Below are positions 18,833-34,037 of a stretch of 64,000 nucleotides of DNA, one piece after another. Each line of letters opens with the position of its first letter. Within the stretch, counting starts at the first letter, position 1. This DNA comes from Aedoeadaptatus ivorii. Its GTDB lineage: Bacteria; Bacillota; Clostridia; Tissierellales; Peptoniphilaceae. A program made the translations under genes and the position numbers. The notes beneath the pieces were generated by a model that did no database searches, was not told the origin of the DNA, and saw only the letters and a list, made by a program, of their open reading frames with translations. The stretch is taken from NCBI RefSeq assembly GCF_900638585.1, contig NZ_LR134523.1, positions 1,018,001 through 1,082,000 on the forward strand, written 5' to 3'.

Positions 18833-18924
18833 GGAGAGATGGTTGAGTTGGTTTAAGGCGCTCGCCTGGAAAGCGGGTATACGTTAATAGCGTATCGGGG
18901 GTTCGAATCCCCCTCTCTCCGCCA
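18833..18924 (+). tRNA. tRNA-Ser (anticodon GGA)
   Basis: The 92-base RNA folds with acceptor GGAGAGA / TCTCTCC (18833-18839, 18914-18920), anticodon stem CTCGC/GCGGG enclosing loop CTGGAAA with anticodon GGA, a long class II variable arm and T-loop GTTCGAATC. The 3' end GCCA is encoded. It reads UCC and UCU codons. Confidence 0.97.
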
Positions 18925-18928
18925 GTAA

Positions 18929-19202
18929 AAGTTTGCCATGCTAGATGGGGAATCAGCGGTGCCCTGTAACTTGCAATCCGCTACAGCAAGATTGAATTCC
19001 CGATCGAGGGTATCTTTCTTGTGGTCTGCCCGAAACAAGTGATGTTGAGGAGCGGGTCCTACGCAATAGGCGCTTGCGAACCGTGTCAGGTCTTGACGGA
19101 AGCAGCACTAAGTAAGTCAGTCTATGTGACGTAGATTCGCCTGTTCTGAGTTAACTATTTCGGTAACGCACGGGAAATTTATTCGAAGTCGGGTGCATGG
19201 CT
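18929..19202 (+). ncRNA. ffs: Signal recognition particle RNA (large Bacillus-type)
   Basis: The region matches the long Firmicute SRP RNA throughout: GCCATGCTAGATGGGGAA near the 5' end, GGTGCCCTGTAACTTGCAA, and the invariant helix 8 region GTGTCAGGTC ... GACGGAAGCAGCACTAAG, which binds Ffh. The roughly 270-nt length indicates an Alu domain. Ends are estimated to within about 10 bases. It lies directly after tRNA-Ser, shares its promoter, and is closed by a strong terminator at 19209. It guides membrane and secretory proteins to the translocon. Confidence 0.95.
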
Positions 19203-30963: not shown

Positions 30964-31029
30964 GATTGCCTCCTTGCATATAGATGATATGCCGGCCATC
31001 GCGTGGCCCGTTCAAAATTTCTTGTATTT

Positions 31030-31058
31030 ATTATACTATTACGGCCTAAGAATCGCAA
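31030..31058 (-). promoter_or_regulatory. Promoter of the metG operon
   Basis: TTGCGA (31058-31053), 17 bases, TATAAT (31035-31030) on the minus strand. The -35 hexamer is the same six base pairs used by the divergent pentapeptide-gene promoter. Confidence 0.65.
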
Positions 31059-31081
31059 CGAATGCCTCTTCGTGCTATACT
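31053..31081 (+). promoter_or_regulatory. Promoter of the pentapeptide-repeat gene
   Basis: TCGCAA (31053-31058), 17 bases, TATACT (31076-31081) preceded by TGC (extended -10). Confidence 0.5.
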
Positions 31082-31101
31082 TTTTACAGGAGGTAGATCC
31101 C

Positions 31102-31710
31102 ATGCAAACCCATCCCCATCGAGGCCGCCTCCGCGATCTGCGGGGCCGGGACTTTAGTAAACAAACCCTCGTCGGCGCCGATTTTTCGGACGCGGATCTC
31201 TCCCACGCCTGGTTCGCCGAAAGCAATCTGACCGGGGCCGATTTTTCGCGCGCGCTTCTCAGAGAGGCGAACTTCCGCGGGGCAAATCTAACAAATGCCG
31301 ACATCTCGGGCGCCGATCTCTACGGCGCCGTCATGGAAGATGCCGTCCTTACGGGCATAAAAAGCGACGAGTACACCCGGTTTTTTCGCCTGCACTGCCC
31401 CGAAACCGGCGCCTTTATCGGCTATAAGCGCTGCTTCGACCACCGCCTTGTGACCCTCTACATCCCCGCCGATGCCCGCCGCAGTTCGGCGACGCTTCCC
31501 TCCTGCCGTGCCGACAAAGCCTTTGTGGTATCGATCACCGATTTCGAACACATGCGCCGCTTTGACGAGGCCATCTCCTTGGTCGACGGCGACTTCGTCT
31601 ATCGCCGGGGCGAGATGGTCTATGCAAACAACTACAATCCCGATCGCTGGCGCGATTCCACCGGCGGCATCCACTTTTGGATGACAAAAGAAGAGGCGTT
31701 TCGCTATTGA
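31102..31710 (+). CDS. Pentapeptide-repeat protein with C-terminal DUF5758-like domain
   Basis: The start is ATG 31102, 8 bases after AGGAGG. In the 202-residue product, residues 10-85 are tandem A(D/N)LxX repeats (LRDLRGRDFSKQTLVGADFS, ANFRGANLTNADISGADLYG) forming a right-handed quadrilateral helix. The C-terminal 110 residues (FRLHCPETGAFIGYKRC ... LYIPADARRSSAT ... CRADKAFVVSITD ... GIHFWMTKEEAFRY) match a domain commonly fused to pentapeptide repeats and called DUF5758. Its role is unknown; the repeat stretch is shorter than in gyrase-protecting Qnr proteins. It is monocistronic. Confidence 0.85.
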   Translation: MQTHPHRGRLRDLRGRDFSKQTLVGADFSDADLSHAWFAESNLTGADFSRALLREANFRGANLTNADISGADLYGAVMEDAVLTGIKSDEYTRFFRLHCPETGAFIGYKRCFDHRLVTLYIPADARRSSATLPSCRADKAFVVSITDFEHMRRFDEAISLVDGDFVYRRGEMVYANNYNPDRWRDSTGGIHFWMTKEEAFRY

Positions 31711-31716
31711 AGCCAT

Positions 31717-31745
31717 AAAAAAAGGGCCCATGGGGCCTGATTTTT
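31717..31745. terminator. Terminator between the pentapeptide and YitT genes
   Basis: GGCCC / GGGCC stem with a 3-4 base loop (about 31724-31737), T7 on the minus strand and T5 on the plus strand. Confidence 0.8.
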
Positions 31746-32400
31746 ATGCGTTCTTTTCGATTCCGCTTTCGCTGACTTTCCACGCCGGTACCTTCATATT
31801 CAGCTCGAACTGGCCGATGAGGAAGGAAGAGACGACCGTGGTCAAGAACGAAAAGATCAATCTCGTAAAGGGAATGTAGCTGAGGGAAAGTGCCAATACC
31901 GTAAAGTCCGTAAATAAGTAGGCTCTGGATATGGGCCAGCGGGTCTTTTTCGAAATCACCAAGGCGAGCGCATCGTCTCCGCCTGCGCAACCGCCTACGG
32001 TGACGACGATGCCACAGCCGCAGCCGATAAAGATACCACCCGCAATCGCCGCCCAAAAGGGGTAGGCGTATAGGTTCGGTAGCACCGGCCCCATTTGATC
32101 GAAGATATAATAGAATATCGCAAAAAAGATCGTCGCCAAGGACGCCTTTTTCAGGAAGGGCTTGCCCAACATCGAAAATCCCAACAGATAGCAAATGCCG
32201 TCCAGTATCGGCGATACATAGGCGAGATTCCATCCCCAAACGGTCTTCATAAACAGACCCAAACCGAGGACGCCGCCTTCGGTAATATGCGCCGGTTCGT
32301 GCACATTGATCACCCCGAAGGCCATGATCGCACATCCCAAAACAATACGTACGAGATCGCTCTTTGTAATCTCGAATTTTCTCAGCAAGTGACTGAGCAT
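31744..32400 (-). CDS. YitT/DUF161-family membrane protein
   Basis: The 218-residue protein has five or six hydrophobic segments and the YitT pattern: GCAIMAFGVINVHEPAHITEGGVLGLGLF, PILDGICYLLGFSMLGKPFLKK and GCGIVVTVGGCAGGDDALALVISKKT. The soluble C-terminal DUF2179 domain found in many relatives is absent. Function of the family is unknown. RBS TTAGGAG precedes the start. The coding region lies about 35 bases downstream of the terminator-like hairpin of the RNA candidate at 32436-32658, so its expression may depend on readthrough. Confidence 0.88.
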   Translation of the reverse strand: MLSHLLRKFEITKSDLVRIVLGCAIMAFGVINVHEPAHITEGGVLGLGLFMKTVWGWNLAYVSPILDGICYLLGFSMLGKPFLKKASLATIFFAIFYYIFDQMGPVLPNLYAYPFWAAIAGGIFIGCGCGIVVTVGGCAGGDDALALVISKKTRWPISRAYLFTDFTVLALSLSYIPFTRLIFSFLTTVVSSFLIGQFELNMKVPAWKVSESGIEKNA

Positions 32401-32433
32401 TTGTCCACTCCTAATTCTGCATTAAGAGGCAAA

Positions 32434-32454
32434 CCAAAAAAGACTGCCGTCCTT
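32434..32454 (-). terminator. Terminator-like hairpin ending the RNA candidate
   Basis: AAGGAC / GTCTTT stem (one G-U) with GGCA tetraloop (arms 32454-32449 and 32444-32439) followed by T residues on the minus strand. It lies 35 bases upstream of the YitT start, either closing a small RNA or attenuating yitT. Confidence 0.6.
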
Positions 32455-32658
32455 AGGTCTACCTAATTTCGCAATCTTATGATGGTGTCGATGCTTTTTT
32501 GTTTTGCTGATTTTTTCTTATAAAAACTCTGAGCTTCTGCATATGCTTTTCCGCCTTTCAAAGTCCCACATCAGGCACTTTACAGGCTCTTTATCGCATA
32601 AACGGCATCAGATAAAAACTACCGAGTAGGTCGGTAACCACCGTAAAACGTATCTTAC
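32436..32658 (-). ncRNA. Candidate structured RNA (about 223 nt) with its own promoter and terminator
   Basis: This stretch lacks an open frame but has successive perfect or near-perfect arms on the minus strand: CCGTAA/TTACGG (32660-32641), TACCGA/TCGGTA (32636-32620), and a compound arm GCCT...AAAGT...ACTTT...AGGC (about 32587-32553). It begins at the predicted start of a TTGAAT-17-TAAACT promoter and ends at a hairpin plus T-run. It does not match tRNA, tmRNA, RNase P, SRP, 6S or the common riboswitch cores I know (T-box, SAM, TPP, FMN, cobalamin, lysine, glycine, ykkC, c-di-AMP, c-di-GMP). In size and multi-stem layout it recalls large Firmicute RNAs such as the raiA motif; that is only a suggestion. 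Confidence 0.55.
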
Positions 32659-32664
32659 GGGTCC

Positions 32665-32693
32665 AGTTTACCACAATCTGTTTTTTTATTCAA
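32665..32693 (-). promoter_or_regulatory. Promoter of the RNA candidate/YitT unit
   Basis: TTGAAT (32693-32688), 17 bases, TAAACT (32670-32665) on the minus strand. The -35 box overlaps the stop codon of the cysteine desulfurase gene. Confidence 0.55.
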
Positions 32694-33792
32694 TACTTTT
32701 TAATACCGCAAGCGCCGTATCGATTTCTTCTTCGGTCGTAAAATACGACGGCGACAACCGGCACAGGCCGCTCTCTTTGGTATGGAGATATTCGTGCAAA
32801 AGCGGCGCACAGTGGTATCCCGAACGGGTGGCGATGTCGTGCTCTTCGAGGAGCATGGAAAGTTCCTGCGAACTCATGTCCGCTCTTCGAATACTCACCA
32901 CGGCGGTTCCCTTTTCTTCGGGATAAAACACCTCGTAGCCGTCCAGTGCGTGGATGCCGTCGAGCAGGCGCGCAAAGATCTTGTCCTTGGTTTCAAAATA
33001 GCCGTCTTGCAGTACGAAATCCATACCCGCGGCGAGGCCGGCAAAACCGTGGACATTTGCCGTTCCCGCCTCCCAACGCACGGGCTTTTCATCGGGCATG
33101 GAGGTCTTAAAGCTCTCGATGCCGCTGCCCCCTTGCTTTAAGGGCGCAAAATCCACCTCTTCGCCGTAATAAAATCCCCCGGTTCCCATGGGACCGTAGA
33201 GCGATTTATGCCCGGCAAAACAATAGACGAGTTTACGCGTATCCACGCCCGAAAAGTCGACGGGAATCTGTCCCAGCGCCTGGGCGCCGTCGACGATGAC
33301 GTACAGGTCGTGGCGATTCGCCACCTCCATAACTCGATCTATATCGGTGACGCTTCCCACCACATTGGAGGCGTGGGAGAGGACGATGGCCTCGGTTTCG
33401 GGGCGAATAAGCCCCTCGAGCTCCGAAAGGTCGGGGGCGAGGTTTTCGTTTAAGGGCAAAATGCTCATATCGCAGCCGCTGACATAGAGGGGCCGGAGGA
33501 CGGAGTTGTGTTCCATCACCGATGTGATGACGTGATCGCCCTCGCCGATTAAGCCGAAGATGGCGGCATTCAGGCTTTCGGTCACACCGCTTGTGAGGGC
33601 GATCCGCTCGTCGGTGCCCAATAGCTTCGCCGCTTTTTTGCGCACGTCTCTAAGCACCCGGTAGCTGTTCTGCGCCCAAAGGTGGCTGCCCCGGCCGGGG
33701 TTGCCGTAGCCCTTTGTCAATGCATCGTAGACCGCTTGTGCCACCGATTCGGGCTTGATGGCCGTCGTGGCGCCATTGTCGAGATAAATCAC
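32686..33792 (-). CDS. SufS/CsdB-like cysteine desulfurase-family aminotransferase class V
   Basis: The 368-residue PLP enzyme starts MIYLDNGATTAIKPE, binds PLP through Lys in CFAGHKSLYGPMGTGG (about residue 195), and has the catalytic Cys loop TRSGYHCAPLLHEYL (about residues 332-346). The RSGYHCAP form belongs to the short group II enzymes often linked to selenium or sulfur trafficking. It releases sulfane sulfur (or selenium) from cysteine (selenocysteine). Its start overlaps the stop of the DUF3343 gene by four bases, a pairing known from anaerobic Firmicutes where DUF3343 is a proposed S/Se carrier. Confidence 0.93.
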   Translation of the reverse strand: MIYLDNGATTAIKPESVAQAVYDALTKGYGNPGRGSHLWAQNSYRVLRDVRKKAAKLLGTDERIALTSGVTESLNAAIFGLIGEGDHVITSVMEHNSVLRPLYVSGCDMSILPLNENLAPDLSELEGLIRPETEAIVLSHASNVVGSVTDIDRVMEVANRHDLYVIVDGAQALGQIPVDFSGVDTRKLVYCFAGHKSLYGPMGTGGFYYGEEVDFAPLKQGGSGIESFKTSMPDEKPVRWEAGTANVHGFAGLAAGMDFVLQDGYFETKDKIFARLLDGIHALDGYEVFYPEEKGTAVVSIRRADMSSQELSMLLEEHDIATRSGYHCAPLLHEYLHTKESGLCRLSPSYFTTEEEIDTALAVLKSIE

Positions 33793-34037
33793 AATTCTTC
33801 CACCTTTCTCTGTTTGCCGATGCGCTCGTAGCGAAACGCGCCGGCGGTCGGGATGTCGTGCGACTCGATGCGCGAAAGTGCTTCCTCTGCCCGCTCTATG
33901 GGTCCGGAAAGCGCGAGTCCGCAGGATTCCTTGATCTCGGGCAGCACGGGAATAATCCGCGTGCCCAAATCTTCGGTGGCATCGAGCGCGTCGTAGACTT
34001 GTTCCTGACCGTCAAATGCGATAACGAATTGTTCCAT
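33789..34037 (-). CDS. DUF3343 putative sulfur/selenium carrier protein
   Basis: The 82-residue protein matches DUF3343: QFVIAFDGQEQVYDALDATEDLG, then PVLPEIKESCGLALSG with one conserved Cys (about residue 39) and a helical C-terminus. The fold is ferredoxin-like and the single Cys could carry a persulfide. It is wedged between the amidohydrolase gene (26-base overlap) and the cysteine desulfurase gene (4-base overlap), which argues for transfer of sulfur from the desulfurase to this protein; the final acceptor is unknown. Confidence 0.85.
   Translation of the reverse strand: MEQFVIAFDGQEQVYDALDATEDLGTRIIPVLPEIKESCGLALSGPIERAEEALSRIESHDIPTAGAFRYERIGKQRKVEEL

Follow-up and report, generated by a model that had tools for sequence, protein, structure and literature searches.

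A riboswitch-like leader RNA of yitT in Peptoniphilaceae that is probably a new class of gene-control RNA

The minus strand upstream of yitT in Aedoeadaptatus ivorii encodes a structured leader RNA (32658-32436; coordinates refer to the window, that is, the whole 64,000-nucleotide stretch of DNA that was analysed) that is riboswitch-like in its predicted anatomy, which is that of a terminating riboswitch. Comparison of sequences from related genomes demonstrates a conserved predicted fold, an intrinsic terminator, complementarity between a strand within the terminator (L) and a strand past the U-tract (X), pairing that covers the Shine-Dalgarno (SD) site, and linkage to one clade of YitT genes. 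We put the probability at roughly two in three that the RNA is a cis-acting, riboswitch-type leader of yitT comprising its own promoter, a sensor core, and a two-state expression platform. A novel attenuating leader of yitT was one of two readings offered in a first-pass annotation of the locus; it draws strong support from conservation and covariation, from the terminator and switch region, and from the exclusive linkage to yitT.

Along the minus strand from 32693 to 32401, a promoter comes first, then several stable arms, then a terminator, and finally the start of yitT (Table 1). The TTGAAT-17-TAAACT promoter of the first-pass annotation is present, with an expected transcript start near 32658, and a TTGAAT-17-(TG)TATAAT or TATACT arrangement recurs at the same promoter position in relatives within the genus; in most loci, a TATAAT-like box lies ~25-30 nt ahead of the core. 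A promoter scan of the window did not list the leader promoter because TAAACT is a weak -10 element. The leader folds with an energy of -66.3 kcal/mol, vs. -55.1 kcal/mol for dinucleotide shuffles (z -2.6), and beats 200 of 200 shuffles. The arms reported on first pass are all there, and the U-tract hairpin reported with them is a terminator with its U-tract at 32441-32436. The arm TACCGA/TCGGTA (32636-32631/32625-32620) and the compound arm at 32587-32553 lie within the conserved fold, whereas the arm CCGTAA/TTACGG (32660-32655/32646-32641) lies outside it and is largely private to the A. ivorii genome. The latter strand, upstream of P1 (CCGUAA/UUACGG in the RNA; L001, 32660-32641), can pair with the P1 5' strand in competition with P1, and locus L009 has a counterpart pairing, ACCACCGUAA/UUACGGUGGU; the strand is possibly an anti-P1 arm private to a few species.

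Table 1. Features of the yitT leader locus, in window coordinates.
Feature	Position	Strand	Evidence or remark
Promoter	32665-32693	-	-35 TTGAAT 32693-32688, 17-nt spacer, -10 TAAACT 32670-32665; read from sequence
Conserved core, candidate aptamer, 168 nt (model R1)	32478-32645	-	cmsearch and covariation
P1 5' strand GGUGGU	32637-32642	-	Pairs with 32481-32486; two-sided changes in 4/6 pairs
P1 3' strand ACCAUC	32481-32486	-	Partner of P1 5' strand
P2 hairpin UACCGA/UCGGUA	32620-32636	-	Two-sided changes in 3/6 pairs
Invariant linker UUUUUAUCUG	32609-32618	-	Ten positions, each invariant in 42/42 distinct sequences
P4 arm around internal loop GAUAAA/AAAA, with P5 and P6	32539-32603	-	Two-sided changes in 7/7 pairs
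P5 (GCCU/AGGC) and P6 (UAAAGU/ACUUUG) with invariant loop CUGAUGUG (32574-32567, then G)	32553-32587	-	Covariation
CUCAGAG and P7 hairpin GUUUUU/AAAAAU	32510-32533	-	Paired in 100% of sequences
A-rich strand and GCAUCG	32489-32505	-	Partner of UGAUGC 32610-32605 (P3) or of P6 loop (pseudoknot)
Intrinsic terminator AAGAUUGC...GCAGUCUU and U-tract	32436-32478	-	-14.3 kcal/mol
L strand within terminator, Shine-Dalgarno-like (AAUUAGG)	32455-32473	-	Complementary to X; L:X energy
X strand past U-tract	32417-32435	-	Pairs with L or Shine-Dalgarno region
Anti-Shine-Dalgarno hairpin covering AGGAG (32412-32408)	32403-32434	-	-10.1 kcal/mol
yitT, 218 aa, YitT membrane family without DUF2179 domain	31744-32400	-	Pfam PF02588, E 2.2e-32

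The covariance model R1 of the core matches the A. ivorii genome with 171 bits and an E value of 1.7e-44 in cmsearch, this sequence having been among those used for training. Across 42 distinct sequences aligned to the model, two-sided changes occur in 25 of 42 pairs, and there are 229 double-changed cells, vs. 84 after shuffling and 41-70 after displacing the partners by 1-3 columns. The model-fitted alignment leans towards structure, and the count was therefore redone on a plain MAFFT alignment, which yielded 101 double-changed cells vs. 49. RNAalifold applied unaided to a MAFFT alignment recovered P1, P2, P3, P6, and P7, and the P4-P5-P6 arm emerges from folding the sequences individually. 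P4 shows up to six pair types per pair; P5 and P6 show two-sided changes in 3/4 and 7/7 pairs, respectively; and in P7 a compensatory change turns U-A into C-G both in L018 (Peptoniphilaceae genus g37) and in the divergent g23 group. For P3 (UGAUGC/GCAUCA), two-sided changes are absent and about five sequences disrupt the pairing; a helix at this place is plausible. We conclude that the predicted helices P1, P2, P4, P5, P6, and P7 are supported by compensatory changes, so that the comparison of relatives proposed in the first-pass annotation finds covariation in six helices.

Besides the linker, the loop CUGAUG, the segment CAGAG, and the CAUC of GCAUC are invariant in all 42 sequences. Because invariant positions cannot covary, we can only infer the tertiary contacts of the core. 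The UCUG of the linker is able to pair with CAGA at 32531-32528, and the UGAUG of the P6 loop is complementary to CAUCR at 32493-32489, with standard pairs in 41-42 of the 42 sequences, one U-U at the end, and four central pairs that are never disrupted. Linker and P7 A strand have the parallel orientation that suits U.A-U triples, and the run of five U residues in the linker could form such triples with P7.

The core is followed, directly after P1, by an intrinsic terminator in 40 of 42 loci; L012 and L017 are members without a U-tract terminator. The L strand in the terminator and the X strand beyond it are complementary to an extent that exceeds chance: in A. ivorii the L:X energy is -16.7 kcal/mol vs. 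-8.5 kcal/mol shuffled (p 0.005), and the mean is -19.0 kcal/mol vs. -9.2 kcal/mol for dinucleotide shuffles of X, with p<=0.05 in 32/35 and with letters of L and X that differ widely among genera. The SD sequence is paired in 33/35 terminated-state folds, the X:SD pairing alone being better than shuffles in only 8/35. When truncated at the U-tract, the A. ivorii leader is predicted to form the terminator; at full length, it is predicted to adopt L:X together with an extended P1. At the level of sequence, the mutually exclusive terminator and L:X helices constitute an expression platform. The two states have mean energies of -22.6 and -21.8 kcal/mol, with a median difference of 3.2 kcal/mol, and are thus predicted to be nearly equal in energy, as in a switch; in minimum-free-energy folds of state B, the SD sequence is often paired with downstream sequence. 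The extended P1 over the terminator strand, which is seen in some lineages, covers 4.3 pairs vs. 3.7 in shuffles overall, which is no better than chance and does not support it as a general antiterminator; a search for a general helix linking aptamer and terminator found none. The 5' strand of the terminator, AGAUUGC (32477-32471), is nearly invariant across genera, and the terminator loop and X vary freely; such constancy exceeds what termination requires, suggesting that AGAUUGC has a partner yet to be discovered.

According to the mechanism that we propose, P1-P7 together with the invariant loop and linker would form a sensor, probably of a small molecule. In the OFF state, the terminator AGAUUGC/GCAGUCU would form, and, in any transcript that leaked past it, X would pair with the SD region; termination or leaky read-through in this state would leave X free for masking the ribosome site. 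In the ON state, no terminator would form, and L would pair with X in one long hairpin, leaving the ribosome site free. X is synthesized after the terminator, and L:X itself therefore cannot stop termination; its role would instead be to hold read-through RNA in a conformation open to translation. We infer that the core senses a small molecule, that switching takes place in the cell, and that L:X represents the ON state.

The RNA is confined almost entirely to one family. A blastn search of 100 related genomes found ~20 clear homologues, each upstream of a YitT gene, and R1 detects a single copy in 42 of 130 Peptoniphilaceae genomes, with E values from 1e-17 to 1e-44. R1 was built without a divergent group comprising four genomes (L143-L146, 74-76 bits), and in four more Peptoniphilaceae genomes it gave only E 0.06-0.09, which we treated as chance. 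An exact two-block pattern applied to 84,980 species genomes identified Peptoniphilus, Aedoeadaptatus, Anaerococcus, Finegoldia, Urinicoccus, and Neofamilia, and one copy outside Peptoniphilaceae, in Fundicoccus ignavus. Outside the family, R1 gave only chance-level scores over 398 genomes spread across Bacillota and nothing credible over 249 genomes of the order, and L133 was inspected and rejected as a member. In a scan of viral contigs, the conserved third block was present in no sequence.

In all 42 testable loci (41 Peptoniphilaceae genomes and Fundicoccus; the one other family genome has the RNA at the edge of a contig), a short YitT orthologue lies downstream of the RNA, starting 63-134 nt past the core; the long YitT proteins of Peptoniphilaceae are not encoded by the RNA-adjacent genes. 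Other neighbours of the RNA-yitT pair vary between genera and hold no clue to a ligand; in P. gorbachii, for example, the pair lies between rplKA-like and rplJL-like genes. Placing the RNA label on a tree of the short YitT proteins requires 3 changes, vs. 7.6 in shuffles, a distribution consistent with one gain and two losses. The Fundicoccus YitT falls inside the RNA-bearing part of the tree, and, because it nests there, its RNA was probably transferred together with the gene. A predicted YitT structure (pLDDT 85) had no meaningful match in the PDB, and the sequence match was weak. Upstream of the A. ivorii leader, at 32686-34037 on the minus strand, lies a cysteine desulfurase-like gene (class V aminotransferase) adjoined by a gene for a small Se/S-carrier-like protein (PF11823); this pair is probably unrelated to the RNA because it is adjacent to it in only part of the genus. 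Convergent with yitT is a gene for a pentapeptide-repeat protein (31003-31710, plus strand; under all NCBIfam cut-offs), and Aedoeadaptatus pacaensis (L041) has a similar gene at the same place.

The misfit to known riboswitch and housekeeping RNA cores noted on first pass holds. Rfam models at gathering scores, including raiA, T-box, and 6S, match nothing in the leader region; elsewhere in the window, they identify a tRNA followed directly by a bacterial large SRP RNA (207.8 bits; both within 18833-19200, plus strand). In a relaxed scan (E<=10), the sole match in the leader region is yjdF RNA (19.1 bits, E 0.98); we regard this hit to the azaaromatic riboswitch as chance, since it scores below the gathering score of 45 bits, extends into the promoter, and leaves out the conserved core, and a scan of 15 relatives carrying the RNA (E<=1) gave no match, yjdF included. 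Identity with 6S RNA was rejected in view of the absence of an Rfam match in the leader and the presence of the genome's own 6S RNA at 1357377-1357556, and identity with a T-box in view of the absence of a T-box match in the window or in the 15 relatives. In anatomy the leader resembles purine, SAM-I, and lysine riboswitches, with a long, conserved, structured leader, an own promoter, an intrinsic terminator, and an exclusive alternative helix, and, like terminating riboswitches, it precedes a single transporter-like gene. It differs from them in that its core fold and conserved sequence match none of 4227 Rfam models and in that its alternative helix uses a strand past the U-tract that would also control the SD site. 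The families of the 224-motif paper should be contained in Rfam 15. The literature searched contained no paper linking yitT or these genera to such an RNA. With a structured domain backed by covariation, a leader position in many genomes, and an exclusive-helix platform predicted from sequence, the RNA is riboswitch-like, a riboswitch proper being defined by ligand binding. None of the RNA catalogues searched contains it, so that a new class of gene-control RNA is probable.

YitT genes without the RNA point to what it may sense. Four such genes in Peptoniphilaceae (L161, L162, L165, L166) form a separate deep clade, each beside a divergent MerR-family gene, and a GyrI-like small-molecule domain is present in both of the two proteins tested among the four; two YitT genes of other Bacillota families (L171, L172) likewise have divergent MerR-family frames alongside. 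Control of this sister clade of short YitT, as read from gene order, would thus be of the MerR/BmrR type, which resembles the leader in its target and differs in being exerted by a protein transcription factor with a GyrI-like sensor domain rather than by an RNA. Because RNA-less orthologues adjoin a divergent MerR/GyrI-like gene, we suggest that the RNA has supplanted a small-molecule-sensing protein; a broad sensor of toxic compounds such as yjdF RNA (RF01764), alike in idea, would suit such a replacement. The RNA-less pairs of short yitT and MerR genes have a MerR-type promoter region, and Rfam scans of 13 RNA-less or distant yitT loci gave nothing relevant. One genus (L167-L169) has lost the RNA; its short yitT is flanked by a divergently oriented gene for a P-type metal ATPase, and the intervening DNA carries an inverted repeat similar to an ArsR-type operator. 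For YczE-type relatives in other phyla, MocR control has been predicted (PMC4944035).

The effector of the core could instead be a protein or a tRNA, and the narrow family range and single regulated gene point against the riboswitch-type reading. An attenuator in which an RNA-binding protein on the core decides termination ahead of yitT would be served by the identical terminator and anti-SD platform, and the narrow range would suit a lineage-specific protein; we nevertheless consider it unlikely, since most protein sites need less than ~170 nt whose many invariant positions are scattered across loops, linker, and junctions, and no regulator gene shows constant linkage. The other reading of the first-pass annotation was a stand-alone RNA, with raiA as one candidate; on this view, a raiA-like or regulatory small RNA would merely happen to lie upstream of yitT. 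The RNA is equipped with both a promoter and a terminator of its own, its ~220-nt terminated form would accumulate, and the raiA motif (RF03072) is alike in size (~210 nt) and in occurring in Firmicutes. However, raiA is stand-alone, whereas the leader is tied to yitT in cis, directly upstream of the same YitT orthologue even as the other neighbours change; X, although located past the terminator, has kept its complementarity to the terminator interior; and a search of the A. ivorii genome for raiA gave no match, as did control genomes. We regard this reading as improbable.

Still less probable, in our view, is attenuation by ribosomes translating a leader peptide, or sensing of tRNA in the manner of a T-box. 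The first-pass annotation had reported no open frame; the A. ivorii leader does contain a 21-codon ORF, and ORFs of at least 20 codons span P7 in the same frame in 24/42 loci, but the other 18 have none in that frame, which accordingly is not conserved. In addition, frame-breaking indels occur in conserved strands, and the AUG of the invariant loop is followed directly by UGA in several genomes. A T-box would be alike as a terminator-based leader in Firmicutes, but yitT is not an amino-acid gene. Finally, the fold of the single sequence stands only moderately above shuffles, as a chance run of hairpins between genes, or conserved DNA without RNA function, would lead one to expect; strong covariation, presence in 42 genomes, and model matches down to 1e-44 refute this explanation, to which we attach almost no weight.

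The riboswitch-type reading can be extended, tentatively and with odds clearly against the full set of details, to a new riboswitch class, in Peptoniphilaceae and as a transferred copy in Fundicoccus, that would respond to a small, perhaps toxic, molecule and would have replaced a MerR/GyrI-type sensor of a YitT exporter. A triple helix of U.A-U type (UUUUU on P7) and a pseudoknot involving the loop (CUGAUG/CAUCA) may hold its core together, and one strand would control both termination and ribosome access. The large, nearly invariant core has no Rfam relative, and its apparent takeover from a protein sensor is a regulator swap that can be tested. Among the hosts of the RNA are common human-associated anaerobes (Peptoniphilus, Anaerococcus, Finegoldia); few regulatory RNAs seem to have been described for them in the literature searched. 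The YitT family is widespread and of unknown function, and the leader RNA probably senses its substrate or signal; the ligand of the yitT leader, once found, would thus offer a direct biochemical handle from which the role of YitT would likely follow.
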